A DNA stretch of 64,000 nt. It comes from Pseudisothecium myosuroides. Taxonomy: Eukaryota > Streptophyta > Bryopsida > Hypnales > Lembophyllaceae. The position numbers and the translations under genes are program-made. Below, one piece after another: positions 967-38,831 of the stretch (its first letter is position 1; each line of letters opens with the position of its first letter). Under the pieces are notes generated by a model. The model had not been told where the DNA came from. It saw only the letters and a program-made list of their open reading frames with translations, and searched no databases. The DNA is taken from NCBI GenBank assembly GCA_951799445.1, contig OX637297.1, positions 11,036,001-11,100,000 on the forward strand. Direction: 5' to 3'.

Positions 967-1532
967 AATAACTGGAGGAATGGCAATAAAAACATGTTTC
1001 TTCTTGCGGTCCTACTGCCTTGGTTTCAAAGGTTGGACATCAATCGCAGTCCCAAGGGGATGACTTAGAAAATTTTAGCATATTACATATTGTGGGAGCA
1101 CGGAAACTTAGAGTAAAGGAAGATAGCATAGAAGTAGGTTAGGAGTTAGTCAAAAATTTCAAAATTTTGGTAGGAAAAAGGAAATTAGATCCGGATACGA
1201 ACAAATTCCGGATAGTTAGAATCCGAGATCCTGATCCTGTAACGGATCTTAAAATCCAAGTTAGGTCGGATCGGAACGAGCTACGGAATAGGTATCCGAC
1301 CTACGCCGCTAGGGAACCATTACGGGAACGGACCTCTTTCCGTTCGCCAAGGGGAACGGTCGGCAGCTCGACTAGTACTTAAACCCTCGCCATACCTAAT
1401 CTTCCTCATTCTTCACTTTGCTGATTGTCTTGCGCATTTAGCTGAGAGAAAGAGTGGTGAGTTAGAGATCGTGACAGGGAGAGACTAGTGAGGTTGGTGC
1501 CGATTGCACCGGATTTAGTTGTCGGTGTCGGT

Positions 1533-3434
1533 ATGGCGGAGTCCAGCAAACCGGTAGCGCGTCGACCCTCTGTCACAGCTCGGATAGTTAGACCAGCGAT
1601 TCCGGCCAACCCAGCGCACCGGAAGGAGTTAGAGACAGATCTGACCCGGATGGGGTGCGTAGGTTTAATCCACCGACCGTGGAATGTTAAGAACGCGGAG
1701 ATGCTAGAGCAGCTGATCTCGGGAGTCCCGAATCAGTTCGAGTTGACTGTGAGAGGCCAACCCGGAGCATGGACGGTGGATGTATGGGCTGACGTATACG
1801 GGTTTGGGAAGGACGGATCCGGATTAGGTTCTCGGGTAGAGACGTACGGGATTGGGAAGTTCCGCAATCCGGTTACCACTAAAGACGGATACCCAGTGAG
1901 TGACTGTAAGGACGCTAGGCAGAAACGGGTGTTGGAGTTTTTGATTCCGATCATGTACCCGGAAAAGCCCACCTGAGTTACGGTTACGGTGGCCAACACT
2001 ATCTTTGGGGCTTTAGAAGATAAGGTAGTCCATTGAGGGAAAGTTCTAGCCGGGATAGTAAAGAAGCTCGTGTCGCACGTCGGGAAGGGGAAGCCGAGTC
2101 TTCTCAGCCCGTACCTGTTTCACCTGTATTACCATCAGGAGGTGTTGACGAGTGAAGAGATGGTGATTTACAACACCGGGTTGGAAATCGTGAAGTACGG
2201 TCTCACGCACGAGATTCCACCGGATACTCCGATCGAGGGAGAGGAGGAGGAAGAAGAAGAAGACGATGAAGAGGAAGAAGAACCGCAGCAGCAGGACCTG
2301 GTCGACAAGAGAGAGAAGAGAAGGAAGTCGACCAATCCGAACTCAAGGGTGGAACAGCTGACCCCGGAAAAGGGAGAGCCGAGTCGACCCCCGGAACCGG
2401 AACCGCAGTCGGACTTCTTCGACGCCGGAACGGAGTGGATGGAGGAGGCCAAGCACATGTATTTTGGCATGTCGGACATGATCCTGGCGATTGCTGCAGA
2501 GTTGAAGGTGGAGCCGGAGGATATCGTAAATCAGATCCGGAAACTACCGAGTCCGGATCTGATTCGTGAAAAGGACGAGCGGATCAAGAGTTTGGAGAAG
2601 GAAAGGGATGGCATGTTAGGTCGGGTGAACTGGGCGGATACGGATGCCGCAGTTGCACGGCAGAAGGAGGCGGAAGCTCTCCAACTCGTTCACAATCTGA
2701 CTGCGTTGGTGGAGCAGCCCGTGGAAGCTGTGGTCAAATCCCGACTCTTCACCAATCAGCTGAGTGGCATAGGCCACTTATCCGGGTCCAAGGTAGTAAC
2801 GATCTTGGTGGACTTCCAGGCCCGGATGGAAGGTATTCTGAAGGAGATGGCGCAACTGTTGGGGCACCTGGACCCGAACAAGCCCTTGGACTTCACCCAC
2901 TTTCCGGAGCTGCCCAACGTCGACTTGTTGAAGACACCTCAAAAGCCGGGGTCAGGGATAAGTCTACCGACATCCCCAAGACCTACTCCAGGTCAGGCAC
3001 GGATCCAGACGAAGACCACGAAGTTCGGCCAAACGAGGAGTGTCCAGTCGATTCCGGTAGGGGAAGGGAGTTCCGTTCCGGCATCTGGAACATCCGTCCG
3101 GAGCGATTTAATCCAACGGATGGGGGCCTTGTCAAACCCGGCTCGGACCAATCCGGTCGACTTTACTCACATGCAGAAGGCATCGCCCAGGAGGAATACA
3201 ACTCCGATTCAGCTGGACGATTCGCCAGAGAAAGAGACCAGAGTGGAGATGATCCAAGCATCCGAAAAGGGGGAATTTACTTCCGGCAATGAGACGGAAT
3301 CGGATGACGACCCGCCGCCGATCGAGCGGAAGATTCCGACCCGGGCTGCAACGAAGTCTACTCCACCGAAATGAAGCAGGAAACCACCTGCAGGGCCGAG
3401 TAGCAGCGCGAAGAAATCCAAGCGGGGAAAGTAA
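1533..3434 (+). pseudogene. Element A ORF, decayed (633 codons, three in-frame stops)
   Basis: The frame starts at the ATG in GGTATGGCGGAG, which is conserved in B. It runs in one frame to TAA at 3432-3434, interrupted by TGA at 1974-1976, 2034-2036 and 3372-3374. Comparison with B shows the first is CGA to TGA and the second TGG to TGA. The protein has an N-terminal domain of about 200 residues with PGAWTVDVW, KDGYPVSDCKDARQKR, ANTIFGAL and SPYLFHLYY. A glutamate/aspartate tract follows (codons around 2241-2283), then a predicted coiled coil (IREKDERIKSLEKERD region), and a basic Lys/Arg-rich tail ends in KKSKRGK. There is no zinc knuckle, protease, RT or integrase motif. I do not recognise the family; a Gag-like or regulatory retroelement protein is one possibility. 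Confidence 0.8.
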
Positions 3435-4076
3435 TTAGTATGTTTGCAGTTTTAGGATTTTTAATCTAGAGCGGATTTTCCGTGCGTGGGGCCCGGTTCC
3501 GGATTCTTAGGAGTAGTTGACTTTGAACTTTCCGGATATTACGGTTGATTACTGATTGGTCATCTGGATTTTCAGGTGTTCTTTTTTTGGCTTTTTGTTT
3601 GGGTTTTAAGTGGAGGGCAGCTTGTTGCCCTTTCATTCCAGCCTTGTCCATTTTGTGTGCATTAGTTTATGTTCATATTCTCTTTTCTCTAATCTGAGCC
3701 ACTAAGTGGACATGCGGATTTTTGGCTATGTGTGCGTTTTCTTGAGTCGTTTATGAATGGTGAAAGTGTGAGAGAGGGCGGATGAGGGGGAATCCGGGTT
3801 GAGAATTAGTTGGACCTGATTTGAGCGAGTAAGTTTGTGAGGACACTTTACTAGATTTGTGAGTAAGGACTTGTGCGTGGTACCTTTAAATTGCCGTAAC
3901 AGTGATCCGGTTCTAAGGAGTGGTGCGGATGCGAATCCGGAATCCAGGGAGGGTTCCGAGCGGAGATAAGCGACCGCCAGCGGAAAATCCCCACTCACCG
4001 GAAGGTCTGCCAACCATAGGATCAGTCTGGTAGATAGATGCACGAATCTCTTCCAGTTCCGGCTGTCTTGATCTGT

Positions 4077-4150
4077 CGTTGTAGTAAAGGCGGAAGGATA
4101 CAATTCTGAGTGACCTGTTCTCCGGGCAAGCTACCCGGGGAATTGTGAGG
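4077..4150 (+). promoter_or_regulatory. Conserved CGTTGTAGTA + hairpin motif in element A
   Basis: CGTTGTAGTA (4077-4086) is followed by TGACC and a GC hairpin (CCGGG, short loop, CCCGG) and then TTGTGAGG. The same order occurs at a similar distance (about 450-600 bases) from the 3' end of B, C, D and E, although the surrounding sequence differs between subfamilies. The role is unknown; an RNA-processing or packaging structure is a guess. Confidence 0.5.
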
Positions 4151-4552
4151 ATCGTTACTTTCTCTACTCTACAATAAAAACTCGGTTAGGATTGTTTTGT
4201 GTGAAGTTTGGTGTAGAGAAATAGATGTCTATGAGTGGTACGTTCCTACCCCTCTAAAGATCAAATGCGGACACCCTGAGGGTAAAACAGGGGAATAGAA
4301 AACCAGTTGAAGTCAAGAAGTGAGACCCGGAAACCGGAAAGAGATAGATCCGGATTGGGATCCGGAAGACCATTGTGTAAGAAATAGGAAAAGAAAGAGG
4401 TGTGGCTTGGGGTTTTGTTGTTTGGATTACAATCCGGAAACTCCCTAGCTTGCTAAAACATACTAGAATGTCCTAGGACAATATTTCGTGTTATCTTACC
4501 ATCATTTTGGTGTTAAGGATACTTACGCCTAGATTGCGCGTACGACACATAT

Positions 4553-7818: not shown

Positions 7819-7820
7819 TA

Positions 7821-10190: not shown

Positions 10191-10195
10191 TACAA

Positions 10196-17190: not shown

Positions 17191-17200
17191 CTTGGAAACC

Positions 17201-17209: not shown

Positions 17210-17628
17210 GCCCCATTTCTCTCTCTAGAACACCCCCAATTCTTGTTTTGGGTCCGTGGGTCCAAGTTATTTTAGATATTTTGGCGTTTGAAGCCAAAAA
17301 CCTCTACGGTGTTTTTGGAGCACTTTTGGCTCCATTGTTGCTTATTTTCAAGCTTTGAAGGTACTTGGGGGTCCTTCTACCTTGCTTTGTATACTCTTTT
17401 GTGAAGTTTTTGGTACCTTGTTGTAAGTGGAGAGCCTCTCTCTCCCTCTTGTACGTGTTGTGGTCTAACTTGTGAAGTTTAAGAGTTCTTTTTGTATCTT
17501 GCACTAATCCTAAAGTCACCCCCCACCGTACCTTGGCGATGCCGCTTTGGGGGGCCTTTAGCGTGTGAGCTTTGTGTTGCCACGTGGTCTAACTTATATG
17601 TTTTCTCTTTGTGTTTTTCTTACACCCT

Positions 17629-17875
17629 CTTCTAACCTTCTCCTTGTTGAGTGGATCTCCCTCCGGGACGGCGAAGCTTTGAACCTCCTTTGTGTATGTT
17701 TTCTAAAGTTATCCCCAACCTTCTTCTAATCTTCTCCTTGTTGAGTGGACCCCCCTCCGGGACGGCGAAGCTTTGAACCTCCTTTGTGCATGTTTTCTAA
17801 AGTTATCCCAAACCTTCTTCTAATCTTCTCCTTGTTGAGTGGACCCCCCTCCGGGACGGCGAAGCTTTGACCCTA
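17629..17875 (+). repeat. Tandem repeat, ~94-bp unit, about 2.6 copies
   Basis: The unit runs from TCTAACCTTCTCCTTGTTGAG through GGACGGCGAAGCTTTGAAC to TTTTCTAAAGTTATCCC and recurs at 17631, 17724 and 17819. Degenerate partial units with ACGG(C/T)G(A/G)AGCTTTG continue to about 18090. Confidence 0.85.
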
Positions 17876-18299
17876 AGTGTGTGTGTTCTTTAAAAGTTTA
17901 GTTTTTTCCCTCTTCTAAAGTCTCTCTCATTGTGTGGACCCCCCTTGGAAACGGTGAAGCTTTGAACTAGTGACAAAGTTGAAGTCCTAAAGCGTGTGTT
18001 TAAAGTGTAGACGGCGGAGCTTTGAACCCCCGAGGTGTCAAGAAGTCCTAAAGTTGGTGTTAAAACCAATCTAACGGCGAAGCTTTGCACCTCCCCCGTG
18101 TTTAGTTCCAAAGTCTAGTTTCCAAGACCTTTGTGGAAACCTCTAGAGTTTAGCTTCCAAGATATGTAGGTTCCTTTGCATTTAGTGAAGTTTAGTTAAT
18201 CCCAAAGTTTTCTTTAGTTTAGTTGTTCCCCAAGTGTTTAGTGAGTCTGAGTGTTCTCCAAGTTTTAGTGTGTCTAAGTTGCTCCCCAAGTATTTAGTG

Positions 18300-18470
18300 A
18301 GTCTAGTTGTTCCCCAAGTTCTATTTTCCCCAAGTCTTATTTTCCCCAAGTTCTATTTCCCTCAAGTCCTATTTTCCCCAAGTTTATTTTCCCCAAGTTT
18401 ATTTTCCCCAAGTTCTATTTTCCCCAAGTCCTATTTTTCCCAAGTTTTATTTTCCCCAATTTTTTTTCCT
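18300..18470 (+). repeat. Minisatellite TTTTCCCCAAGTYYTA
   Basis: About ten imperfect copies of a 15-18-base unit (TATTTTCCCCAAGT) lie head to tail, with looser copies (TTCCCCAAGTNTTTAGTGAGTC) from 18225. The open frames through it are a by-product of the repeat. Confidence 0.85.
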
Positions 18471-18527
18471 TAGTTCACCAAAAACCCAATTTGCCAAAAA
18501 TCCAGTTTTTCCTTAGTGGTCAAGGTC

Positions 18528-19739: not shown

Positions 19740-20665
19740 AGAATTTAGGATTAAAATTAGGGATTAATTAGCGGTTAGAATTAGAATCAATTTACATTTT
19801 ATTTCTTAAAGTTAAAATTCTAAGGTCAAAATCTAGAGTTAACTTTGGAAAGTTAAAAAGTAGAATTAATTTGGAAGTTTAACTTAGGGGGTTAAAATTT
19901 CCAGTGAAACCTTAGGATAGTTTAGAAAAGAAAGTTAGGATAAATTAGGAGTAAAAAGTCCGAGTGGGAAGTAGAAATTAAAAAGTAAAACTTTGGACTA
20001 AATTTAGGAGGTAGAAATTACAAGTAGATTTTTGAGTTAGAAATAGAGTTAAAATTAGAAGTCAAAACTCAGAGTAAATTGTGGAAGTAAGTTTAGAAGT
20101 TAAGCCCTAGAGTTAAAAGTTGGAATTAAATTTAGGAGGATAACACTTAGAGTTAAACTAGGATTAAAACGATAGGATTAAAGTTGGAAGTAGAAAGTCA
20201 AAAGTCAAACGTCAAAAGTTAAGATTAAATTTAAAGGTTAAACTTTAGAGTCAATTGGGGAGTAAAAAGTTAGAGTGAAAAGCTAAAAGTAGAAGTTAAA
20301 AGTTAGAGGTAGAAGTTAAAGTTAGAGTTAGTTGTTGGAAGTAGAAAAAATCTAGAGTCAAAGTGAAAACGTAGAGTCAAAACTAGAGGTTAAAATTTGG
20401 GATTAATTTTAGAAGTAAAATTTAGAGTTAAAAGTCAAAATCCTAGAGTTAAAATTCAAGGGTAGAGTTTAGAGTTAATTTAGGAGTAAAAACTTAGAGT
20501 TAAAAGTTAAAACATAGAATTAAAATTCAAGGGTAAATCTTAGAGTTAATTTAGGAATAGAAACCTAGAGTCAAAAGTCAAAACATAGAGCAAAAGTCGG
20601 TAGTTAATATTTAGAATCAAGTTAAAGAAGTAAAATCTAGAGTTACATTCCGAAGTTGGAACTTT
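19740..20665 (+). repeat. Degenerate purine-rich array (TTAGAGTTAAAAGT motif)
   Basis: About 0.9 kb is made of variants of TTAGAGTTAAAAGTCAAAA and TAGGATTAAAAT at irregular spacing of 15-45 bases. It is strongly strand-asymmetric (few C on the plus strand). No coding potential is visible. Confidence 0.7.
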
Positions 20666-21683: not shown

Positions 21684-22099
21684 CCTTTTGTCATACGCGC
21701 AATCTAGGTGTAAGTATCCTTAACACCAAAAAGATGATAAGATAACACGGAATATCGTCCCATGAGATTCTAGTATATTTTAGCAAGCTAAAGATTATCC
21801 GGGTCTTTTCAAAACAACAAAACCCAAGCAACACCTCTTTCCCTTCCTATTTTCTTTCCAACACAAATATCTTCCGGATTCCAATCCGGATCTATCCCTT
21901 TCCGGTTTCCGGTTTGATCCGGGTTCCGGGTTTCACTTCCCAATTCTGACTGGTTTTATATCTCCCTGTTTTACCCTCAGGGTGTTTGCATTTGATCTTT
22001 AGAGGGGTAGGGACTCACCACTCATAGACTCCTGTTTCGTCTATAATAAATTCACACGAAAGAATCCTTACAAAGTTTTTATCGTAGATTAGAGAAAGT

Positions 22100-22181
22100 A
22101 ATAGTCCTTACAATTTCCCGGGTAGCTTGCCTGGAAAGCAGGTCACTTAGAACTACATCCTTCCGCTTTTACTACAATGAC
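22100..22181 (-). promoter_or_regulatory. Conserved TTGTAGTA motif region in element B
   Basis: Minus-strand GTCATTGTAGTA (one C-to-T change from A's GTCGTTGTAGTA), then GTGACC, and a weakened hairpin ending in CCCGGGAAATTGTAAGG. The layout matches A, C, D and E. Confidence 0.45.
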
Positions 22182-22833
22182 AGATTAAGACATCTAGAAC
22201 TGACAGAGATTCGTGCATTATCTACCAGACTGATCCTATGGTTGGCAGACCTTCCGGTGAGTGGGGATTTTCTGCTAGCGGTCGCTTATCTCCGCTCGGA
22301 ACCCTCCCTGGATTCCGGACTCGCATCCGCACCACTTCTTAGAACCGGATCACCGTTACGGAAATTTAAAGGTACCACGCACAAGTCCTTACTCACAAGT
22401 CCAGCAAAACTTCCTCACAAACTTACTCGCTCAAATCAGCTCCAGATACTCTCAACCCGGATTCCCCCTCACCCGTCCTCTCTCTCTCTTTCTTTGACAC
22501 TTCATTAACAAATCAAGAAAACGCGCACATAGCCAGAAATCCAAATGTCCACTTAGTGGCTCAGATTAGAGAAAAAGGAGAAATGAACATAAACTAATGC
22601 ACATAAAATGGGCAAGGATGGAATGAGAGGGCAACAAGCTGCCCTCTACTTTAAAAACCCAAACAAAAAGCCAAAAAAGTTCACCAAAAATCCAGGTGAC
22701 CAATTAGTAACTGACCGCATTATCCAGAAAGTTCAAAGTCAACTACTCCTAAGAATCCAAAACCGGGCCCCACGAACAGAAAATCCGCTCCAGATTCAAA
22801 AAAACTCTAACTAACTGAAAACATGCTAACTAA

Positions 22834-24739
22834 CTACTTCCCTCGCTTCGATTTCTTTGCGCTGCTACTCGGCCCTACAGGTGGTTTCCTGCTTGTTTTT
22901 GGTGGAGTGACCTTCATTGCAACCCGGGTCGGTATCTTCTGCTTGATTGGCGGAGGGTCATCATCCGAGGCCGTCTCCTCCCCAGAATCAAATTCTCCCT
23001 TCTTGGACTCCCGATCATCTCCCTCCTTACTTCCTTCTCCGACGAATCCTCTAGATGAATCATTGCTGTCTCCCGCTTTGGTGACACCTTCTACATATGT
23101 GGAAAGTCGGTCGGATTGGTCCGAGCTGAATTTGACAAGGCCCCCATCCGTTGGATTAAGTCGCTCCGGACTGAAGTTCCGATTGTCGGGACGGAACTCC
23201 CTGCTACTACCGGAATCGACTGGATACTCCTCGTATGGCCCTCCTTAGTAGCCATCGTTTGAATCTGTGTCTAGCTTGAAGTAGGTTTTGGGAATGGCTG
23301 TAGAATGATCCCCTGCCCCGGCCTCTGGGGCGTCTTCAACAAGTCGACATTGGGCAACTCCGGAAAATGAGTGAAGTCTAGGGGCTTGTTCGGGTCGAGG
23401 TGCCCCAACAGCTGAACCATCTCCTTCAATATTCCTTCCATCCGGGCCTGGAAATCGACCAAGATAGTCACCACCTTGGACCCGGATAAGTGGCCTATAC
23501 CACTCAGCTGGTTGCTGAAGAATCTGGACTTCAACACGGCTTTCGCGGGCTGCTCCACCAACGCTGTCAAGTTGTGGACAAGTTGGAGAGCTTATGTCTC
23601 CTTCTGTCGTGTAGCTGCGGAATCCGTCTCCGCCCAATTCACTCGAGCTAAGAGGTCGTCCCTCTCCTTCTCCAAGTTCTTGATCTGCTCATCCTTCTCA
23701 AGTAGCAGATCCGGGTTTGGTCGTCGCCGGATCTCCGTCAAAATATCTTCCGGCTCCACCTTCAACTCCGCGGCAATGCCCAGGATCATGTCTGACATTC
23801 CGAAGTGCATGTGCTGAGCCTCCTCCATCCACTGCTTTCCGACATCGAAGAAGTTCGACTGCAATTCCGATCCCGGGGCTGACTGGGCCTTCCTTTTTTC
23901 GGGGTCGTCTGCCCCACCCTCGAGTTCGGATCGGTCGACTTCCTCCTCTTCTCCCGTTTGTCGACCAGGTCCTACTATTGCTGTTCTTCCTCATCGTCTT
24001 CGTCATCTTCTTCCTCCTCTTCCTCTTCTTCCTCCTCGATTGGAGTATCCGGCGGAATTTCGTGCGTGAGACCGTACTTTAGGATTTCCAACCCGGTGTT
24101 GTATATCAACACCTCCTCGCTAGTGAGGACCTCCTGCTGATGATACAGGTGGAACAAGTACGGACTAAGAAGGCTAGGCTTCCCCTTCCCTACGTGATCC
24201 ACTAGTTTCTTCACTATGCCCGCTATAACCTTCCCCCAGTGGACTACTTTATCTTCTAAAGCCCCGAAGATAGTGTTGGCCACAGTAATCGTAACTCGGG
24301 TTGGCTTTTTCGGATACAGGATCGGAATTAAAAATTCCAACATCCGTTTCTGCCTAGCATCCTTATAGTCACTCACGAGGTATCCGTCCTTAGTGGTAAC
24401 CAGATTACAGAACTTCCCAATTCCATACTTTTCTACCCGAGAACCTAGTCTGGATCCTTTCTTCTTGAACTCGTACACATCAGCCCATACATCTGCTGTC
24501 CATGCTCCGGGTTGGCCTCTCACGGTCAACTGAAACTGATTTGGGACCCCGGAGACGAGTTGCTCCAGCATCTCCGGGTCCTTAACATTCTATGGCCGGC
24601 GAATCAAACCTACGCACTCCATCCGGGTCAGATCTATCTCTAATTCCTTCCGAAAAGTTGGGTCGGTGGGAATGACCGGCCTAACTATCCGAGCCGTGAC
24701 TGAGGACCAACACGCTACCGGGTTGCTAGACTCCGCCAT
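22834..24739 (-). pseudogene. Element B ORF, decayed
   Basis: The start is the ATG at 24739 (CTATGGCGGAGTC), equivalent to A's. The C-terminus GGGAAGTAG matches A's ending in position. Lesions include TAG at 24592-24590 (TGG in A), a double TAG after the acidic tract near 23970, TAA near 23592 and at least one frameshift near 23270, since the span is not a multiple of three. The surviving blocks are LTVRGQPGAWTADVWADVYE, VANTIFGAL, SPYLFHLYHQQ, an acidic tract of about 20 Glu/Asp, HFGMSDMILGIAAELKVEPE and SGIGHLSGSKVVTILVDFQA. The same blocks and order occur in A. It is non-functional as it stands. Confidence 0.8.
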
Positions 24740-25589
24740 AGTTTACCGACACCGACCACTAAATCTGGTGCAATCGGCACCGAGCTCACCCTTCTCTCCC
24801 TGTCGCGATCTCTAACTCACCACTCTTTCTCTCAACTAAGTGCGCAAGATGATCAGCAAAATGAGAATGAGAAAGATTAGGTTTGGCGAAGCTTTAAGTA
24901 CTAGTCAAGCTGTCGACCGTTCCCGTCAGCGAACGGAAAGAGGTCCGTTCCCGTAACGGTTCCCTAGGGTCGTAGGTCAGATACCTATTCTGTAGCTCGT
25001 TCCGATATGACTCAACCCGGATTTAAGATCCGTTCCTTCTTCCGGTAAAACCTGTTTTAATGGATCTAGAACCTCGGAATCTGATTATCCGGTATTTATC
25101 TGTATCCGGATCTAATTCCCTACATCTTACCCAAATTTTGAAATTTTTGACTAACTTCTACCCTATTTCTACACTACGTCTCTTCCTTATGAGTTTCCGT
25201 GCTCCCACACCTTTGCAACTCAAATTCTCTACCAAAAAATGAAAGCCTCCACAATTAATTACAATAGTTATTGAAATCACTATGTCCTGGTGGTTTTATG
25301 CACAGTAGCTTGGGTCTTAGTAGAGAGGCTGATTCTTTCATTCACGGGCCTCTTTGCCTTCTTACTGCGCACTTTGCTGCTCTGCTTTCCTGGCTTACTT
25401 TGAATTGAATTCGGAGCAGCTTGTACATTGCTCTCCCTGTTGTCATTCTTGTCCTGTCCGGACCCCATCCAGTGAGATGCTCTTGTCGCATGCAAGATCA
25501 CCCTCATTCTTGTAGTCATTGCCCATTGCCTACCTCGGAGCATTCTCTTGAACTATTTGGAGCATTGCTTTCATGGTTGTTCCCCTTGT

Positions 25590-26069: not shown

Positions 26070-26734
26070 AACCCTATGGGAGCGCAAAATGTAAGGATAA
26101 GGTTAGTTAGTTAGAAATATGGAAGAAGGAGTAAGAAAGGGTAAAATTTTTTGGATTTTTACAAGTCTTAAATACGAGTTTTACCAAAATTAAGATATTT
26201 TTGTATTATAAGATCTCTAAACAGATAATATGGTTAAGAAAGAGAACTAGAGTTTCCCGATTAAACTAGGAAACCGGAACCAGATCCAGAACAGGGTATC
26301 AATCCGGAAGTTACCCAAGTACCGGGCCGGGCGTGAACATATGTAGGAGGATACCGGAGAGCCAACAGGAAGCCATTAGGGCAATCCTGAGATCCAACGG
26401 CTCTACCGGAAGTTAGGGAGAGTTGTTTAAACGGTCACAGTCTTCCGGGATTGCGGCGGAAACTGTAACCCTAAAACGGCTGGAAATGGATAGTTTGGGA
26501 GAAACCCAGGAAGAGGAAAACTTCCGTCTTCATTTTTCATTCTGAATTGAGGAAACATCTTTGGAATTCTGAGAGCGGTGGTTTGCAGATCAGATCGTGA
26601 AGACGAAGGGTTCCTAGTTTCCGGATCCGGATAGCATAGTACCGGAGTTTGTGAGAAAGGATCTGTAGTTTCTTGTATTGGAGGGCTTGTGTGAGAATTG
26701 TGCATGGCAGGGTAAGGAGAAACATTTGAGTGCA

Positions 26735-28594
26735 ATGGTGAAGGGTGAGGGTAGTGAGGCTGTCGTCTTCAAAACCAAGACTATCCACCCGGTCATCCCG
26801 GAAGATGAAAATCACCGGAAGCAGTTGGAGGAGGATTTGGGTCAAATCGGATGCCTTGGATTCCTACGGTGACCATGGAGCCTAAAGGACGACGAGATGA
26901 TTCAGGAGCTGACAAAGGACCAGTCCAACGAATGGGACAAGACGCACCGAGCGCTGCCAAGGAAATGGACCCTCGAGACATGGAAAGCAGTTTATGACTT
27001 TCCTCGCCCAGGAGACGGGATGGCTTCCCGGACACACAAATTCGCGGAGGGTAAGTTTTCTGACACTCCCCACAAGAAGGATGGTTACCTCGTGGCGGAC
27101 TGCAAGAATGCTAGGGAGAAGAGATTGTTAGAGTTTATAGTTCCGATAGTGTATTCGGAACGTCCATCCCGGATCACAGTGACTTGGGCAAACACGATCT
27201 TCGGTGCCCTGAGCGGAGAGAGGAAGGTATTCTGGGGAGAGATAGTGAAAGATTTAGTGGGAAAGATGGTCTCTTCCCTAGGTAACACTAAGGCCACGGC
27301 AATTGGCCCCTTCCTCTTCCACCTCTATGATTATCTAAGGACACTTAGAGATCATGAGAGAACCACCTATAAGGCTGCAGCCACCATCCAGAAGTTTAAC
27401 ATCGTTCCTCCTAAGAAACAGGAGGAAGAGGTAGAAGAGGAATCAGAGGGAGGATCTTCAGAAAAGAAGGAAGAATCCTCAGAGAGAGCCAGAGAGGTCT
27501 CCCCCCGGAAGCAGAAACCTAGGGGTAAACAAAGGGAGTCCGAGGAACCGGAAAGTTTACGGGATAAGACCCTTAGGAGGATCATTAAGGATCTCGAGAG
27601 GATTCGTGAGGAGCTGAGTGCCGAGAGAGGAGCAGTCCAGGATGTATGCAAACTGTTTGGTGGGATCGAGGTAGCTGAGCTCGCGAAGAAGGTAGAGGGT
27701 TTACTTCGGGATAAAGAATCCCGTAAGTGGAAAACCCGGGTTAGGGAATTGACTGAGAGGAATGAGGAACTGACCCGGAAGTTAGAGAAAAGTGAGGTCG
27801 GAAGCAAGGAGGTTAGGAAAATTTCCTTTGAGGCTGAGGACACACTTCACAAAGTCCGGAGCTTTGTATCTTACTCAAGTAGTGTGATCAACAAAGCTAA
27901 GTTGTTTGACGAAGGGATCCTGAAAGAAGGATCTGAAGCAGCCGTGAAGACAATATTGGTGTTGGCGGAGTATTCAACATCAATGGAGAAGATGATGTAC
28001 AAGATCCGGGACGTTCTTCAACAGTTGGGGTTCTATCAAGACCCGAAGAAAGCGCCCATGTCCCCACCTGTCATACCAAAGCCAAAGGACAAGCCGAAGG
28101 AGGAAAAGACACCTGGGAAGGGAGCCTCCAAGCTGAAGCCGGAGGAAGGGGAAGGATCGGTACGTGCATCCGGATCCAAGGAGAAGAGGAAGTCCGGATC
28201 CGAACTCGGGACCCCCCAGAGTAAGGATTCAAAGCAGTCTCCGAATGTTCCCAAGTCAACGAAGAAGAAGAAAACAAGCAAGCGTGCCAGAGAGGTGTCT
28301 CCCGTGAGTTACCACGAGGAAGAGGAAGAGTCGCCAAGTACGTCAAAAAAGGATGACAGCCCGACGGGATCCGGATCCCAGCCGATAGCGATTCCGGATT
28401 CTGAATCCGAGGACGATTCAAACTTGGAGACGATTTCTCCTTCCCAGCTCAAAGGTAAGACACAGATACCATCGAAGGGGACGCCAACAAAGGGCACGAC
28501 ATCGAAGGGGGTCAAGCCATCTCTAATCCGGAAACAGCCACCCCGGAAAGGAGCAAGCAAAGAGGAACCTACCTCGAAGAAGGCCAAGAAGTAG
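26735..28594 (+). pseudogene. Element C ORF, one early stop (619 codons)
   Basis: The ATG at 26735 (GTGCAATGGTGAAGG) matches D's. The frame is open to TAG at 28592-28594 except for TGA at 26870-26872, where D has CGA (Arg), a single C-to-T change. Downstream of it 565 residues are uninterrupted. The order is: N-terminal domain with TLETWKAVYDFPRPG, KDGYLVADCKNAREKR, ANTIFGALSGER and FLFHLYDYL; an acidic stretch (EEEVEEESEGG); a long coiled coil (ERNEELTRKLEKSEVGSKE); FDEGILKEGSEAAVKTILVL; and a Lys/Ser/Pro-rich basic tail with KKKKTSKRAREVS. It is otherwise the best-preserved copy of its subfamily. Confidence 0.82.
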
Positions 28595-29321
28595 TTAGGA
28601 AATTCCTTGAGTTAATCCTTGCATGGTTAAACTCAAGTTTTTAGTAGCAAGGAAGCAGTTAGTAAGCTGCATTTTAGGAGGATGCACCTGGACTTTAGTT
28701 TCCGGGATATTAGGATCTGAGATCCACATTTTGCAGATCGGCTGATAGGAAGTCAACTCAGATGGATAAGGAATGACGCGTGTCATTCTTTGGTCCTTTA
28801 TTTTAGATTTCTAGAGACCTTTAGGGTTTCCCTTGGGTTGCTATTTAGGGGCTGGAAGTTAGTTTCAACCCCGGGCGTTTTCATATTCTTGTTTTTTCCA
28901 TTTCCATTTCTGAAAAGAAAGCTTGAAGTTCAACTCCATGAGTATTGGTCTGAAAAGTCTTGGTCTTGTGTTGAGGAGTTAGGCAGTGTTTTTATCATTG
29001 CAAGTTCAGGTAGTTTGATGGTGAAGCTTTGAGGAGAAGAGGCGTCACCGGATTCTGTTTGAATCCGGTTCCGGGAGTATTTGGGTTGGTGAAGAACGTC
29101 TGTCGTACTAAGAGACAATTCTATCTACTGATGTTTCTTGGGAGTCTTCTGAGCAAGATAGCCATTCCGAGGTTAGGGGAGTCCTTGAGAGGAAGGACAA
29201 ACGCTAGCTGATGTCTGAGAGGTTTTGTTGTAACCGGAAGAGAGGAACTGGAAGGTAGCTGGGATCTGTTAGTACAAGAGTACCCGATTTAGCTCTTGGA
29301 ATTCTACCCGAATAGATTTGT

Positions 29322-29402
29322 CGTTGTAGTAATGTGGGGATTGTAAGGGTTTTCTGAGTGACCTTCTTGTCTGGAGTAACTTCCCGGATCAGTTGTGAGG
29401 AA
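29322..29402 (+). promoter_or_regulatory. Conserved CGTTGTAGTA motif region in element C
   Basis: TCGTTGTAGTAATG at 29321 is followed by GAGTGACC, an imperfect CTGGA...CCCGGA stretch and TTGTGAGG, as in A and D. Confidence 0.45.
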
Positions 29403-30059
29403 ATACTTGCTTTTCGGTTTTCTTTGTTTTCTATGTTATTTCTCTTTTAAGTAGAACTTCAACCACTTTAATCCAGTGGAGGGTAGGATTTACGTGTTTT
29501 TCCTTAAATCTAAGAACGGAACCCTCTGATGTAGAGGTTAAACTATAAGATGGTTCACCTTGCTTACTAGATCCGGATCCGGGAAAGGAACAGAATTACG
29601 ACACTCGTTCTGATTCCTCATTTGGTCAAGCAGGATACTAAGTTACTACTGAGTTTGTGAAGAATTAGTAACCTAGTTTTTGTTGATTGGTAATATATTT
29701 GAAAGCTAGGTTGATACAGGATAAAGTTAAATGAATACAGATTGGGAAGTCTAGTTCTACATTTTATTCCCGGATTCTGTTTGTCTTTGGTTTTGCGTTC
29801 CGGATCCTGTTCCGGGAATTTTGAGGAAACTACTAGTTGAAATCCTGTGGGAACGATACACGAGTCATCTAAGGTATTTTACACTACTTTAGCACCTAAG
29901 GGAGGGATTTGTGCTTTGTTGTATTACGACAAACCCCCACCGTTGAAAATGATCTTGAAGTTCAAATTGGATTTGCATTTCTCATTTTTTTTAGACTCGA
30001 TACAGCCTGCTCTAGATAGTTGAGAAAGCCGTCCATAGTCCACATTGACACTCATGAAG

Positions 30060-30760
30060 ATCCTATGACTCACTCTAGACCTTACAGTGATTCATGTACC
30101 ACAAAAAGTCTACCCTCAATCACCTAGAACTTTGTACAACATCCAAAGTCTACGTTGGGACTAAACAATAATTCAATAATATCAAGAAAAGTCCACATTC
30201 AATGAAGTGGATCCTCTGGAATACCTTAAGACTATGCGGGGACTTTACAATAATTCCCTAGTACCAAAAGGAGGCTGCATTCAATCAAGTGAACTCTCAT
30301 TAATACACTAAGACCATGCTTGGACTTCATGGTAATTCAATAATACCAAAAAAAGCCTACACTTAGTCAAGTAAACTCTCTTTAACACCTTAAAACCTGG
30401 CTGGGAGTATATAGTAATTGTACTATAGATTCAAGAACACCAAAAAGAGTCTACATTCATTCAAATGAACTCTCTATAACACCCTATAACTCCCTCTACA
30501 AGCACACAATACCTCTAGTATGGATTCCCAGCCACAAAAATTGTCTACATCCATTCATCCGAACTACATGTTATACACTATAACCCCATCTAGAATAAAC
30601 AATCCCTGAAGTAGCAATTCTAAGACACCCCAAGCAAACTCATTCCATTTAAATGAACTCCCTCATATACCGTATAACTCGCAGGCTCTCCAATATGCAC
30701 AACCCTTGTTTTCATTCAAGAACACCTGAAATCACTATGCACACATGGAACCTCTATAGT
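30060..30760 (+). repeat. Degenerate satellite-like array, ~80-95-bp period
   Basis: The motif GTCTACATTCATTCAAGTGAACTC and variants recur at about 30191, 30273, 30355, 30449, 30543 and 30634. Between copies are ATTCAATAATACCAAAAA and CACCCTAAGACC. It lies in the 1.2-kb gap between elements C and D. Confidence 0.65.
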
Positions 30761-31681
30761 CTTTGCTACTCTCTTTGACACCAATTGACTCCTTCCAAAG
30801 TATAAATTAACTACTTGATACATTCCTGTAATCCATGGCCAAAATATACCTATTGTGCAAGCCCAAGTCCATAGAGCTTCAATTCACTGAATATCAAATC
30901 AATGGACGTATTAACTCTATGACCCAAAGTCTTGTAACATTGTCCCCAATTCAAAAGCAGACTTTGGTGGATTGACAAAACCCTAGACCAGCATGACGAC
31001 TGCAAATGTAACAAAGGTCAAAATCCTAACTTGAATCTATTCCCCTAAATCAATGCAAGAAGATACAAACTATGAACTCACCTCCTAAATCTGTACCAAG
31101 ATCATCAGACTGATTGTTCTACCTTTCATGCTCTACCCCCTTTGCATTATGTTGTAACACGAATAAGCACAAATCCCCCTTTTGGCGTTAACCTAGTGCA
31201 AAAACACCTAGGATGACTCGTGTATCGTTCCCACAGGATTTCAACTAGTTGTTTCTTCAAAATTCCCGGAACAGGATCCGAAACACAAAACCAAGGTAAA
31301 TACAATCCGGGACTGAAAACGAAAATCTAGACTTCCCAATCTGTATTCCTTTAACTTCCTCCTATTTCAACCTAGCTTTCAAACATATTACCAATCAACA
31401 AGAACCAGGTTTGCATCTCTTCACAATAGTAGCAGTAACTTAGTATCCCGCTTAGCTAAACACGGAAACGGAAAGAGTGTCTTGATCTTGTGCCTTTCCC
31501 GGATCCGGATCTAGCAAGCAATGTGAACAATAGTATAGTTTAACCTCTACATCAGAGGGGTCCGCTCTTGGATTAAGGAAGGACACGTAAATCCTATCCT
31601 CCACTGGATTAAAGTGGCTGAAGTTCCACTAGAAAGGAAATAATAAAGGAAACAAACAAAACAAGAAAACAAGTATTTCCT

Positions 31682-31762
31682 CACAACTAATCCAAGAAGT
31701 TACTCCAGACAAGAAGGTCACTCAGGAAACCCCTACAATCCCCACATTACTACAACAACAGA
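31682..31762 (-). promoter_or_regulatory. Conserved TTGTAGTA motif region in element D
   Basis: Minus-strand GTTGTTGTAGTAATG, GAGTGACC, TCTGGAG and GTTGTGAGG appear in the same order and spacing as in C. Confidence 0.45.
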
Positions 31763-32473
31763 TCTATCCAGAAAGAATTCCAAGAGCTGGATCAAATACC
31801 CGGATACTAAGAGATCCTATCTACCTTCCCGTTCCTCCCTTCCGGACACAGCAGGACCTCATCAGACGTTGTCTAGCGCTCACTCTCCAATTTGAAGAAC
31901 TCACCTAGCCTAAGAATGGCTATCCCGCTCAAAAGATACTTCAGAAACCTCAGCAGCTCAAACTCCCTCTTAGTACACAAGGTTTCTAATCTCAATTCCA
32001 ATTACTCCCAGAACCGGATCCAGACAGAATCCGGGGGCTATCTATTCTGCTCCAACACCTGCAAACCAGCTACCCGCACTACCAATGCATTACACACTAA
32101 TGGCATACCAACACAGACTGAGACTTTTCAGACCAGTACTTGTGAAGTGGAAATCTGAGTTTAATTTGCAAAGTACTGAAAATGCACATAAGAATACCCG
32201 GGGCTTCCAACCAAAGTCAGCCCCCTAAATACCAAACACCCAGAGAACCCTAAAGGCCCTTGGGAATCAAAAGCAAAGGACCAGAGAATAACACTTGTCA
32301 TTCCCTTATCCTCCACCCATTGACTTTACTACCACACCCCGCCAATTCGCAAAATGTGGATCTCAGATCCTAAAAACCCGGAAAGTAAGTCCAGGTGCAT
32401 CCAACTAAAAAGCAACTAACTGACTGCTTCCTACCTATCAAAAACTTGAGTTTTAATACTGACCATGCTAGGG

Positions 32474-33749
32474 TCAACTCAAGGAACTACCTAACTTCTT
32501 CTTCTGCCGCTTTGGAGAAGGTTCCTCTAACTCGACCCCTCCTTTCCGGGGCGGTTGTTTCCTGCTTGGCGACGGTTTGGGTGGCTTGGAAAACTTCACC
32601 TCAGTCACTGAGGCCGTTTTTCCCTTGAACTGCAAAGGAGAGATAGTCTGTAATTCTGTATCTTCTTCCGATTCCGAGCCCGGATGGGACTCAGATTGGG
32701 AACCGGATCCAGACTGACTACCATCCTTCGCTGAGTTACTTGGTGTTTCGTCTTCCTCTTAATGGTTACTCACAGAGGTTGCCTCCCTTCCTCATTTTGG
32801 TGTCGTCTTCTTCCTGTTCGTGCTGGGCATCGTTGGAAATGGCTTCAAATCCTTGCTCTAGGGTGTCCCGAGTTCGGATCCGGACTTTCGGGCCATCTCC
32901 TTGGATCCGGATCCATGCCCTGATCCTTCTCCTCCTTCTGACCTCCGCTTGGAAACTTCCTTGGCGGGTGTCTTCTCTTCCTTGGGCTTACTCTTCGGCC
33001 TCACATATACTGGTGACGACATTGGCACCTTCTTGGAGCCCTGAAACAATCCCAATTCTTGAAGAACAATCCGGATCTTGTACATGAACTTCTCCGTAAC
33101 ATCGGAATACTCAGCCAGAACTTCTACTGACTTAACTGCTGCCTCTGCCCCGGACTTATGGATTCCCTCATCAAACAGTTTGGCTTTGTTAATCACATTC
33201 CCTGAATTTGATACAAAAGCCCTAACTCTATGGAGAGTCTCTTCAACCTCTGGGGAAAGTTTCCTTCTCCCCTTACTCTCCTCAAGTTCCCGGGTTAGTT
33301 CCTAGTTCTGATCAGTCAATTCCCTAACCCGGGATTCCCACTTCCGGTTCTCTCTATCTCGGAGTAAACCCTTAATTCTCTCCACGAGTTCAGATGCTTC
33401 AATCCCACCCAGAAGCCCACATGCACTCCTGATTGCTCTTCTCTCAACATCTAACTCTTCTCTGACCCTCTCCAGATCCTCAATGATTCTTCCCAGTGAG
33501 TCATCCCGGGGATCTTCCGGTTCCGGGGATTCCCGACTCTCACTCTTGATCCCTTTCTTCTTCTCTGAGGCTGGAATTTTCTCTGGAGTTTCCTCTTTCT
33601 CCTTTGAGGATTCTCTCTCTGATTCCTCGTCTTTCTCTTCCTCTACCTCTTCTTCTCCCTTTGGAGTGATATTCAGTTTCATGAGCGTGGCAGCAGCCTT
33701 ATAGGCAGTCTTCTTAGGACCTCTGAGGGTTCCTAAATACTCGTATAGG
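32474..33749 (-). pseudogene. Element D ORF, 3' part (after the nested insertion)
   Basis: The frame resumes on the far side of element E inside the conserved HLYEYLGTLRG block and carries the acidic tract, coiled coil and basic tail found in C. It contains TAG near 33302 (GAG in C) and TAG near 32858 (CAG in C). The original stop is lost (AAG in place of C's TAG), so the frame runs on to TGA at 32476-32474. The blocks GGIEASELVERIKGLLRDRE and NKAKLFDEGIHKSG correspond to C. Separated from its promoter and N-terminus by 3.5 kb, it cannot be expressed as the original protein. Confidence 0.8.
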
Positions 33750-34242
33750 TGTCGCAGCACAGAGTAAGTGAATTCCCTGTTATACTCCCAAAAACCACTC
33801 TAAAGCATAACAAAATGACTCTAAAGATCGAACCCACGAGATTCTGTGAAGTGTCTAGCTCTATTCCCAACTTAAGCTCAGCCAGTATCCAATTTCTACT
33901 TTCCGGTCCTAGATCTAAAACCGGAAACAACAACACACCAAAAACAACAACCAGACCTCTCTCTATCTCTTCCAGCCTGTCAAGCTATTCGGTCCTGTAA
34001 ATCTTCCACAACCCAGGATCCTTCAACTTCAGATCCTGGAACTCCTTTGGACCGATCCAATCCGGTCCTCGCACACGTACTCTCACTCTACTCCGGTTTA
34101 GTTTTGCCTCTGTTTCACTATCAGAGGTTCGCCGCTTGCTTTTGAGAGTGGCAGGCCCGCCACTCCTTCCGTGACTTATAGTGGCTGAAGACCCACTTCT
34201 CTAATTCACTACTTCCTACACTAGCGCGGATCCGGTTTGATC

Positions 34243-34320
34243 TCTCACAGCCACCCGGACAGCGATCCGGGTTGCAGGTCACACAAAGACCCCCCGTACG
34301 ATCCTCTCATACTACAACGA
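34243..34320 (-). promoter_or_regulatory. Conserved CGTTGTAGTA + perfect hairpin in element E
   Basis: Minus-strand CGTTGTAGTA (34319-34310) is followed by TGTGACC and the 7-bp perfect stem ACCCGGA/TCCGGGT with a 6-base loop (34272-34253), then TGTGAGAG. It is the clearest version of the structure seen in all five elements. Confidence 0.55.
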
Positions 34321-35229
34321 CCTTGATGCCAAGTTCCCTCCCGTACAAAGTTAGGTGGTTACAAGCAAACTCGTCCGTTCCAACATCAACTAAAGTCCTT
34401 CCGTTTACCAACTAGGGCAGCGAGACTCACGGGAGATCGGACACTCAACCGGATTTCCTATCCAGGAGTTCTAGCGCGACTAAGGACTCCTTCCCTATCC
34501 GCCTAGCCTAACAACGGTTTTCTCGCCCGGAATCGTGAACTGTAGAGGCGCTGAGGAACTGAAATCCGCTCCCAACACTTAGAATACCCAATCACATGCA
34601 CATAAGAGCAAAACAAACGCACTAAGGGGAGAAATCTCTCTAGAATCTGCATACATTTTCCTATTTCCTCACTAAAACAACCCTGCCACGCGCGGGAGAG
34701 ACGTACAACAAGAAGTCAATAGAAAACATACAAAAACTCAAGAGAAAAGACTCCCAGTCTCCTTCGCAGAGACTGACTAATATACACTTTAAAACTCAAA
34801 AGTCAACAAAAAGGGGCCCGGAAAGTCCGCGCGGAACTATCGGTCCCTGCCGAGCCGGCCAGACCGGAAAACATCCGATCTAGACCAGACACACCGGATC
34901 AAATCCGGTCCGGTCCTAACTAACAAATATTTACAACTAAAATTCTAACTATCCTATCATAACCGGATCTACTCCTTGATCCGTTCCTTTGTCTATAGCT
35001 TGGTCTTTGCCTTGGTCCACGCTCTGATCTTGATCCTCACCCTGATCTGGGGTCAGATCCATACCTTGATCCTGCCCCGGGTTCAGTATGGGACTTCTAG
35101 GCGGGTCGTTCCAAGTTGTTCGAAGACGTCCGTCAGGTTCCGGTTCCGCTCCCTGGTTTCACGTTCTGGGAGATCCGGTGACGAATCCAAGTTGATGGTG
35201 TGCGCGAGCTTCCTCCCACTCTTCTTTGA

Positions 35230-36714
35230 CTAGGAAGTTCCCTCCTTTCCTTCCGTCTGAATGCCCACGTTCGGAAAAGACCCGGGCATTGAAAGGTCGG
35301 ACAAATGGAACAACCGTGACAACGTCACTCCGTTCAGCTTCCGGCTGCTCTCCTCCATCCGGTTTGCAGCTTCTCGCGCTTCCATCATCACCAATTCCAC
35401 TTTCTCGGAGTAGTCCGTCAAGATCCGGACCAACCTGGTTCCGGATATCTTCTTCTCCTTGAGGACTCCCTCGTCAAACAGCTTGGACTTGGTGACGGCC
35501 TCTCTGGTTGTCCCAAAAGTGGCCTTCACATCCTCGGCTACTTTCCGGGTAGCCTCCGCCATCTCCCGTGTGGTAGCCATGTCCTCCTTGAGGAGCAACA
35601 ATTCCGTCTTCAACGACTCATTCTCCTCTTGGAGTCGTCGTATCTCCGCTTTTTGCTTCCGGATCTCATCCGGGCTGGAGATGAATTCTGCAACCACTCC
35701 TGCGAGGTTGCTATCTGCTGGTGCTTCCACCAGCTCGCTGATCTGGTTCAGAATCAGCTTCTTCACTATCCAGTCTGCTCGCACATTGCTCAGAATGTTG
35801 ATCAGCTGGTTGAACGGATCCGTCGGATCCGATCCGAAAGGACCCGGTTCTTCAGAAACCGGTTTCTTCCCAAGGTTGGAGGTCTCACCCGGAGGGGTTG
35901 GGGTTCTTCTCCGGTGAGGAGGCGTCGTCTTCTGCCGCTTGTGCTGCGGCCGGTGTTGCTCCTCCTCTTCTTCTTCTTCTTCCTCGGAATCGGATACTTC
36001 CTCTTGTTCTTCTTCCGATTCCGATTCCCCATACTTTAGGAGTGACTCATGAGTCTTCCACTCCTTCTCCTCCGTATCCGTGAGGAGTTGATTGTGCTTG
36101 TAAAGATGGAAGATGTAGGGACTCAACGGAGTCGGCCTACTTCCTCTGATCTTCGGAATCAGACGGTTGACCAGATCGGAAAAGATCCGGGCCCAGTCTA
36201 CTTTCCATTCCCCACTCAGGGCTCCGAAAATCAGGTTCCCGATGGCAATGGTCACCCTCGTCGGCTTCTCCGGGTGGATGATCGAAACCAGGAACTGTAG
36301 AAGGTTTCGATGCCGGTCGTCCAAACAATCCGCGACCACATGCCCATCCTTCGAGTCCACCGTGCACCGGAACTTCCCCCGAGTATAACCCTCCTTCGAG
36401 GTGGCCATCCCTCGACCTCCTGACCGGAATTCGTACACGGCCTTCCACATCTCTTCCGTCCAACTGCCCAAAATCCCGCGGATGGTCTTGTCGAACTGAT
36501 TCGAGAGTTTTCCCAACAACTCTCGAATCATCCGTTCCTCCCTAAACCCCCAGGGTTTATCGATCAGTCCTCTGCAACCCATCTTGGCAAGATCCTCTAT
36601 GAGGTTGTCCTTTTCCTTCTCTTCTGCTGGAATAATCGGACACACCTTCCGAAGTTTAACTTCCACTGCGGAGGAACTGGACGGCCTTGCTCTACTCTTG
36701 CGGAGCTGAGGCAT
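35230..36714 (-). CDS. Element E ORF: intact 494-residue retroelement-associated protein of unknown function
   Basis: The ATG at 36714 (GTCCATGCCTCAG) opens a frame with no stop until TAG at 35232-35230. The first ~200 residues are clearly homologous to A-D: MGCRGLIDKPWGF, GSWTEEMWKAVYEF, KDGHVVADC, PEKPTRVTIAIGN, FGALSGEWK and LSPYIFHLYKH. A Glu-rich tract and a basic RPQHKRQKTTPPHRR stretch (possible nuclear signal) follow. A coiled coil comes next (IRKQKAEIRRLQEENESLKT) and then KSKLFDEGVLKEKKISG, matching FDEGI.K in C and D. It is shorter than the A-D frames (about 620-633 codons) because the basic tail is absent. No enzymatic motif is visible. A nucleic-acid-binding, Gag-like or host-interacting role is conjecture. 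Confidence 0.78.
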   Translation of the reverse strand: MPQLRKSRARPSSSSAVEVKLRKVCPIIPAEEKEKDNLIEDLAKMGCRGLIDKPWGFREERMIRELLGKLSNQFDKTIRGILGSWTEEMWKAVYEFRSGGRGMATSKEGYTRGKFRCTVDSKDGHVVADCLDDRHRNLLQFLVSIIHPEKPTRVTIAIGNLIFGALSGEWKVDWARIFSDLVNRLIPKIRGSRPTPLSPYIFHLYKHNQLLTDTEEKEWKTHESLLKYGESESEEEQEEVSDSEEEEEEEEEQHRPQHKRQKTTPPHRRRTPTPPGETSNLGKKPVSEEPGPFGSDPTDPFNQLINILSNVRADWIVKKLILNQISELVEAPADSNLAGVVAEFISSPDEIRKQKAEIRRLQEENESLKTELLLLKEDMATTREMAEATRKVAEDVKATFGTTREAVTKSKLFDEGVLKEKKISGTRLVRILTDYSEKVELVMMEAREAANRMEESSRKLNGVTLSRLFHLSDLSMPGSFPNVGIQTEGKEGTS

Positions 36715-36857
36715 GGACACGAGCTGTGCTAAACCGGATTCTGACTGAGGTTACCTTTCCCTCTCCTAGCCGCACGTCTCGTTTCTCACCTTCGCTCTTC
36801 CGATCTCAACCGGAATACCTCTAAACCTGCAACAAACACTAAAGCGCTGCGCGCCCT

Positions 36858-36880
36858 CACACACACACGCACACACAAAC
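36858..36880 (-). repeat. CA microsatellite in element E leader
   Basis: An interrupted (CA)n run of about 23 bases lies between the TATA box and the ATG of element E's ORF. Confidence 0.8.
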
Positions 36881-36985
36881 TCACAGAACAAGGGAGCAAA
36901 TCGCTGGAGAAGGAATCTAAGTATGCGCTGGAGAGCGATTTCCGCAAAAGAAATTTGAAAAAGAGTGGCAACTGGATTGGTCAGC

Positions 36986-36994
36986 CTATTTATA
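36986..36994 (-). promoter_or_regulatory. TATA box of element E
   Basis: Minus-strand TATAAATAG within GACTATAAATAGGCTG lies 230 bases inside the element's 5' end and 272 bases before the ORF's ATG. This suits a promoter that drives the ORF. If E is an LTR, this would be its U3 promoter and the ORF would lie in R/U5. Confidence 0.65.
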
Positions 36995-37224
36995 GTCTGA
37001 TCTGTCATCATGACCAAATCCGTTCCTGACCCAATCCATTCCAACTCAGATCCGCTCCAATTCTAATCTGGTTTAGATTCAGATCAAATCCGGATTGTCA
37101 CCTATTCCGTTTCGTAGTTAATTTCCGGTTTTCCGTTACCTCTTGCTCAATTCCGGATCCCAGATCACGGTTTCCGTTCCAAGGTTTAAATAACTTACAA
37201 AAACCAAAAATTCACATTGCGACA

Positions 37225-37816
37225 ATAGGTGAAAGATAAATGGCCCTATCGCTGTTGCCTTGGTATTTCCTAAAGATGAGACCATCTTTGCTACTCTCTC
37301 CTTCACAATACCAGCCCAAAGCACTTTCCTTTCTCTACTCAGTGCCCCGAATATCGTGTTGGCCCAAGTTACCGTAATTCGGGTTGGACGCTCCAAATAC
37401 AGGATCGGGAGTAGGAATTCTAGCACTCTTTTCTCCCTCGCATCCTTGCAGTCTACTACGGTGTACCCATCATTGCCATCAGGAGCTTCAGAGAACTTAC
37501 CCTCATGAAACTTGAGCGTTTGAGAAGCCATACCCTCTCCAGGTTGAGGAAAATCGTATACCTGTTTCCAGGTATCGATGGTCCAACTGCTGGGAAGAGC
37601 CCGGGAAGTCTTGTCCCATTCATTCGACTGGTCCCTTGTTAGCTCCCGGATCATGTCCTCGTTCCTCAGCTTCCAGGGTCGGCGAAGAAAACCTGCACAT
37701 CCCATCTGCTTGAGGTCCTCCTCCAACTGTTTCCGATAACCGGGATCTGTCGGGATGATTGAGAGAACGTTCTTGAACTTCAAGGTAGCAGCTCTGCTCC
37801 CTTCGCCCTTCACCAT
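37225..37816 (-). pseudogene. Element D ORF, 5' part (before the nested insertion)
   Basis: The ATG at 37816 (GTGCAATGGTGAAGG, as in C) opens a frame with no stop up to the insertion of E. It encodes the N-terminal domain: MGCAGFLRRPWKLRNEDM, SSWTIDTWKQVYDFPQPG, NDGYTVVDCKDAREKR, RPTRITVTWANTIFGAL and ATAIGPFIFHL. It then runs into element E and stops at about 37136. This part preserves the Arg codon (CGA) that is TGA in C. Confidence 0.8.
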
Positions 37817-38831
37817 TGCACTCAAAGTTCTACCAAATTTTTCTTAACAGCAAACCTCACGCAGTCACTTACTAATGCCAAACTACAAATTTCCCGACTC
37901 TCACTCTGGTCCTATCTCTCTCTCTGGTCCAGAAAACTCGGAGCTCTCTCTCTCTTAGCAACCTTAATCACAACACAACCACTTCGAGCTCTCCAAGAAT
38001 TCTACAACCCTCAAAATGAGAAGTGTGGGCAGAAACGAAAACCCCTGGGTCTTCTCCCGTTCAACCGTTTTCCAGCCGTTAGGGTTTCCCGTTCCCGCTG
38101 GAATCCCGGAAGATTGTGACCGTTAAACGGTCTTCCTTATCTTCCGGTAGAGCCATTGGATCACAGAATTGCCCTAACGGCCTCCTCTGGGATCCCCGGT
38201 ATCCTCTAGTACTCTCCGGTACATGTTCATATCCGGCCCCGGTATATTGAGCAAGTCCAGATTTAATCCCCGGTTCCGTATCCGGTTCCGGATATCTGGT
38301 AAAAATCAGGACATTCTAATTCCCTTTCTTAACCTATTTATCTATTTACAATTATCCTCTACTGGAGAAATCTTAATTTTGGTAAAACTCATATTTAAGT
38401 TTTGCAAAAAGCTAAAAATTTTACCATTTCTTGCTCCTTCTTTCATATTCCTAGCTAACTAACCTTATCCTTACATTTTGTGCTCCCACACATTATCACC
38501 ATCCGGCTTCTTGATACCAGATCACCCACCAGTCTTTGTGCATTTCCTTGCCAAAGCGGTTAAACATATAGCTCATGGAACTTGAAAAATGAGAAATCGC
38601 ACACCACGAGTGCTAAGCATGTTGGCAACTTGCAAACTTGTAGTACTACATTGGATCTTGAAAATCCTTTACAACAAAACGGACAAGGAGCTATCTCCAC
38701 TATCACTGTTTCCCCCACATCCTCCTCACAAGAAAGATAAAAAAAGGGAAGGGCATTGGGAAATAGCCTAGGCGTTGGTATCTGGCCTTCATGCCCTTCA
38801 ACTGCGCCATCAGCACGCTCCTATGACGCCT

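Follow-up and report, generated by a model that had tools for sequence, protein, structure and literature searches.

Five long single elements with 5-bp target duplications, a shared protein family and CCGGA(T) arrays in the moss Pseudisothecium myosuroides

We analysed a 64,000-nucleotide (nt) stretch of the Pseudisothecium myosuroides genome (assembly GCA_951799445.1, contig OX637297.1, positions 11,036,001 to 11,100,000, forward strand), here called the window. It carries five elements, A to E, which together cover 18,176 nt and leave 45,824 nt outside. Each is flanked by a perfect 5-bp target duplication, and all are densely occupied by the short motif CCGGA(T). The elements are most likely solo long terminal repeats (LTRs), 3.5–3.9 kb long, of a plant LTR-retrotransposon family. 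Our favoured reading as a whole, with a probability of about 0.45, is that these solo LTRs carry their own gene, whose protein would bind CCGGA(T) and keep the LTR promoter active. The finding is real and unusual, and its most informative features are the purifying selection on the common protein family and the CCGGA(T) arrays in all elements.

Insertion signature and encoded protein family

The five elements, with their target duplications, are:

1086-4552, plus strand: element A (1091-4547), with CATAT at 1086-1090 and 4548-4552
21684-25214, minus strand: element B (21689-25209), duplication CCTTT
26070-29936, plus strand: element C (26075-29931), duplication AACCC; it starts with TA rather than TG
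31145-38495, minus strand: element D (31150-38490), duplication CATTA; split in two by E
33745-37229, minus strand: element E (33750-37224), duplication ATAGG; inserted in D

A preliminary description of this DNA had given these coordinates and perfect duplications, and both were borne out in all five elements. The duplications all differ, and for each element the probability that 5 bp agree by chance at a set position is 1/1024. Exact TG..CA ends, which had been ascribed to every element, were found in four of the five, the exception being C. E has in addition a perfect 7-bp inverted match at its termini (TGTCGCA/TGCGACA). A and B aligned over their full lengths (1-3457 and 1-3521) with 82% identity. 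C and D aligned from base 3 through the last base with 71.5% identity, D being entered as two pieces (C 3-1250 and 1248-3857). The A/B and C/D homology thus fixes the ends of A to D independently and leaves no freedom in choosing them. The match of D to C was broken exactly at the position of E, indicating that E is nested within D. The outer boundaries of D were correct as described, but the true D is only ~3.87 kb long once the nested E is set aside.

The TG..CA-type ends, the 5-bp duplications and the inverted termini of E give good support to the proposed insertion by a retroviral-type integrase. Target duplications of plant LTR retrotransposons are 5 bp long. As had been stated, no LTR pair was found: self-comparison gave no terminal direct repeats in any of A to E. 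Paired direct copies flanking a gag-pol interior were not found within the window either.

The reading frames and associated features are:

1533-3374, plus strand: reading frame of A, 613 codons, with in-frame stops at residues 148 and 168
22834-24748, minus strand: remnants of the B reading frame, scattered across several frames
26735-28594, plus strand: reading frame of C, 619 codons, with an in-frame stop at residue 46
35230-36714, minus strand: reading frame of E, ATG through stop, 494 amino acids; the homology of relatives extends beyond the stop
36013-36675, minus strand: N-terminal domain of the E protein, the basis of the domain-only model
36987-36994, minus strand: candidate promoter octamer TATAAATA (TATA box), ~280 nt before the start codon of E

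All five copies have broken reading frames, and that of E is broken only near its end, by a stop at residue 495; its homology to the database relative P0001 continues to nt 2112. The frame of D is split by the insertion of E. One sense protein of 500–630 residues had been claimed for each element, which was right for the frames but not for intact genes (stops in A, C and E, several frames in B, and D cut). Pfam searches with the A, C and E frames gave no reverse transcriptase, integrase or gag match. No tRNA gene was found in the window by ARAGORN, and no Rfam match reached the gathering score there. In E, the candidate TATA box is followed by the open reading frame (ORF) and then by ~1.5 kb of 3' noncoding DNA, and the unit may accordingly be ordered as promoter, gene and 3' noncoding part. 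Octamers of the TATAAATA type occurred 11 times in the window, with 2.8 expected. A clear TATA-type box as in E was not seen in A to D.

By sequence comparison, the ORFs of A to E form one protein family with three deep lineages (A/B, C/D and E). The predicted protein has a conserved N-terminal domain, helical and ~210 residues long, followed by an acidic linker, then a coiled coil and finally a charged tail. The ratio of nonsynonymous to synonymous substitution rates (dN/dS) was 0.18 between A and B. Between C and D it was 0.10 and 0.20 in two parts, ratios that are rough because dS (1.4–2.0) is near saturation. Six wrong-frame controls gave 0.92–1.74. This is the substitution pattern of a protein that evolved under purifying selection.

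The family has 53 database relatives: 43 came from a protein search, and an alignment-based search listed 43 matches (all E <= 1.4e-44), ten of them new. When 43 relatives were compared with the window by tblastn, all 246 rows fell inside A to E. A tree of 36 rows placed E within the group of P0001 (16 rows, 99/99), and A/B and C/D as two further pairs; these pairs join each other (93/76), but on long branches, so that this grouping is unsure. No precomputed Pfam domain was present among the 53 relatives as listed, and hmmscan of 35 relatives gave weak matches only, the best having an E of 4e-4 in one member. NCBIfam matches of the C and E frames lay far under the cut-offs, and PDB sequence searches gave only weak matches of coiled-coil or chance type. 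Scans for relatives yielded 49 pattern matches in viral contigs and 57 in bacterial and archaeal contigs, none of which was confirmed. The viral fold library gave no match at E <= 0.001; no capsid fold was among what it listed, which excludes nothing.

CCGGA(T) arrays and retention of their CpGs

CCGGA or its complement TCCGG occurs 204 times in the elements versus 18 times outside, and CCGG 201 versus 31 times. The sites are dispersed, lie on both strands and include the ORF. The density of CCGGA in A, B, C and E was 9.7–16.2 per kb in noncoding DNA and 7.6–15.4 per kb in the ORF parts. Compared with dinucleotide-preserving shuffles, noncoding CCGGA was the top-ranked 5-mer in each of the three lineages (z 14.7, 15.4 and 10.1), and in the flanks it was below expectation (z -1.5). 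Within the ORF parts it was the top 5-mer of A and of C, whereas E had it in fourth place.

Against a second-order Markov model, CCGGAT was in excess in all five elements (0, 1, 0, 2 and 0 of 400 controls as high). The result was less clear for CCGGA (4, 6, 12, 62 and 2 of 400), and CCGG alone was mostly without excess (91, 48, 13, 103 and 10 of 400). Third-order Markov controls reproduced the motif counts, as is nearly inevitable. When synonymous codons were shuffled within each protein, none of 1000 shuffles had as many CCGGA as observed for A or for C, and 3 of 1000 did for E; the ORF sites occupy all six phases. Neither the amino-acid sequence nor codon usage therefore accounts for the ORF excess, and the motif is constrained at the level of the DNA.

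CpGs within CCGG have outlasted other CpGs in three of four comparisons. Between C and D, 15/26 noncoding CpGs in CCGG were kept versus 7/57 others (p 3.3e-5), and 15/25 versus 12/90 in the ORF (p 6.8e-6). Between A and B the values were 25/34 versus 46/138 in the ORF (p 3e-5), and 13/18 versus 33/59 in noncoding DNA, which was not significant (p 0.28); in these counts a site was taken as CCGG if present in either copy, which slightly favours kept sites. Counted per copy, the C/D noncoding values were 29/40 in CCGG and 15/65 elsewhere. Among the 65 non-CCGG copies, 30 are now TG or CA, as expected of methylated DNA. Much of the divergence probably accrued while the lineages were active, since the dN/dS of the ORFs is low, and for this reason the retention is most simply read as selection for the motif. 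Protection of CCGG CpGs after insertion is also possible.

Origin of the elements and possible role of the protein

We take the elements for solo LTRs because they combine the insertion signature with the lack of an interior. The two LTRs of a complete element would have recombined, deleting the interior and leaving the 5-bp duplication. In the mechanism that we think likeliest, the encoded protein would bind the CCGGA(T) sites scattered over the whole LTR, which would serve as a self-recognition mark, and once bound would maintain the activity of the LTR promoter, whether by countering silencing as VANC does or as an activator. Gene and sites would be copied with each insertion and would stay together in every solo LTR, so that a solo copy alone could supply the protein to the whole family. 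A protein recognising CCGGA(T) is suggested by the motif arrays, the DNA-level constraint and the selected protein taken together, and we see an even chance that this protein binds the motif. An anti-silencing role is doubtful. Rather unlikely, finally, is the full system, in which the LTR would hold both the gene of a DNA-binding anti-silencing protein and dozens of CCGGA(T) targets whose CpGs are methylation sites, and each solo LTR could still protect the family. If true, such an LTR-encoded counterpart would extend sequence-specific anti-silencing to retrotransposons, which form the largest part of many plant genomes, and solo LTRs, usually taken as dead relics, could remain active genes. 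A protein gene within a retroviral LTR is known from the superantigen of mouse mammary tumour virus, although this is an animal retrovirus and its protein and role are unrelated to those of A to E.

Sequence-specific anti-silencing by a transposon protein has been described for the VANDAL DNA transposons of Arabidopsis, in the available parts of PMC5735166 and PMC10398659. There, VANC of VANDAL (MULE) is a transposon-encoded protein with a short motif that is enriched in its own family, rare outside and arrayed in noncoding DNA. The predicted N-terminal domain of the encoded protein gave a weak structural match to VANC21, an anti-silencing DNA-binding protein. By analogy, the protein of A to E may work like VANC. 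VANDALs, however, are DNA transposons, and VANC carries DUF1985, which was not detected in the A to E family. Membership in VANC is not claimed, because the sequence test for DUF1985 was negative and the layout of the sites differs. No plant LTR-encoded anti-silencing protein was found in the part of the literature covered (titles and abstract openings), and no paper came up there under the name "putative plant transposon protein".

Several observations weigh against the reading that we favour. Profile and domain-only searches did not confirm the likeness to VANC21, and hmmscan gave no DUF1985 (PF09331) match in the A, C and E frames or in 13 relatives (set A3). For the 35 relatives of set A1, DUF1985 was not among the 25 of 70 families listed. 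The best profile alignment to it spanned 38 columns (E 0.16–0.28), with 14 of 30 permuted controls as good, and sequence homology to DUF1985 is not claimed. The sites of VANC21 (YAGTATTAY) all point the same way, often form tandem repeats and are mostly noncoding (PMC5735166, PMC10398659), whereas those of A to E are dispersed over both strands and also enter the ORF. Moreover, DNA binding by the protein is a prediction, and the structural lead is weak. This speaks for the strongest rival, namely that the elements are solo long LTRs whose ORF encodes a Gag-type or other accessory protein unrelated to the motif, CCGGA(T) being enhancer repeats for a host transcription factor. Such a role has been suggested for the repeats of Sirevirus (Ty1/copia) LTRs, a parallel case of plant LTRs in which a short motif containing CGG/CCG recurs: each element has at least eight palindromic copies, built on a CGG-CCG core and placed ahead of the TATA box (PMC2829016, available part). 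Those palindromes are longer and clustered, the LTRs average ~1.3 kb, and the same text mentions no LTR protein gene. Here the sites cover the whole element and enter the ORF beyond what the amino acids require, and the dyad TCCGGA is not in excess (41 among 201 CCGG, with ~52 expected from the flanking-base frequencies). We regard host-factor enhancers as possible but not probable.

That all five elements in the window are single, and that the units have their own ends, gene and candidate promoter, fits a class without LTRs, in which each unit is complete and integrase is supplied in trans. Long LTRs recombine readily, so that five solo copies out of five are not improbable, and we know of no way to copy an LTR-less unit via reverse transcription. 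We prefer solo LTRs because such a class lacks a known replication mechanism, and consider the class improbable. Non-autonomous DNA transposons of the Ginger2/TDD type share the TGTNR ends of Ginger, target duplications of 4–5 bp (5 bp in TDD-4 and TDD-5) and a gypsy-like integrase, as far as the available part of PMC2836005 describes them. Their terminal inverted repeats are ~50–300 bp long in that text, compared with 7 bp at most here, and they encode a transposase; neither long repeats nor a transposase were seen in A to E. That the frames of A, C and E gave no integrase domain says less, as a non-autonomous copy would lack one too. This origin is very improbable.

Closer in size to the solo LTRs proposed here are those of Retrosat2, RIRE3 and RIRE8, gypsy elements of rice. 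Their LTRs are at least 3 kb long (over 3.2 kb in Retrosat2) and end in TGTCACACCC/GGGCGTGACA, and they have an extra ORF without assigned role (PMC3485330, available part). This ORF0, in contrast, lies upstream of gag-pol and is not described there as being inside the LTR.

Conserved block and surroundings of the elements

Further features of the window are:

34310-34321, minus strand: conserved noncoding block GTCGTTGTAGTA in E, found at about 4075-4086 in A, 22170-22181 in B, 29320-29331 in C and 31748-31759 in D
55617-61424, minus strand: EDR1/CTR1-type host gene (PF14381, E 4.8e-43; PAS domain; kinase stretch)
550-966, plus strand: fragment of an NLI-interacting-factor-like phosphatase (PF03031, E 8.9e-6), just upstream of A

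The block extends as GTYRTTGTAGTA, followed by GTGACCT, and its distance to the 3' end is 473–612 nt across the five elements. Together with a GAA repeat, GTCGTTGTAGTA provides the only 12-mers common to all three lineages. A likeness of GTCGTTGTAGTA to the start of plant tRNA-Asp was dropped, as cmscan of 33740-35240 (E only) gave no tRNA up to an E of 5 and ARAGORN none in the window. A consensus hairpin of the five blocks had some compensatory pairs, but its covariation term was unfavourable (+0.32) and it was not used. The 3' noncoding DNA of C and D (about nt 3200-3800 of C) is mostly 75–90% identical per 100 nt, above most of the ORF.

Outside the elements, the Pfam scan covered ten ORFs. 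Beside D, at 38832-39902 on the minus strand, two open frames with a coiled-coil-like part had no Pfam match above the cut-off; they are possibly another element-encoded protein. Tandem repeats were found at 17624-17905 (94 bp), 18278-18497 (~16 bp) and 20000-20579 (~71 bp). Direct and inverted repeats of 114–190 bp, up to 92% complementary, cluster at 41036-42589 and possibly represent another element.

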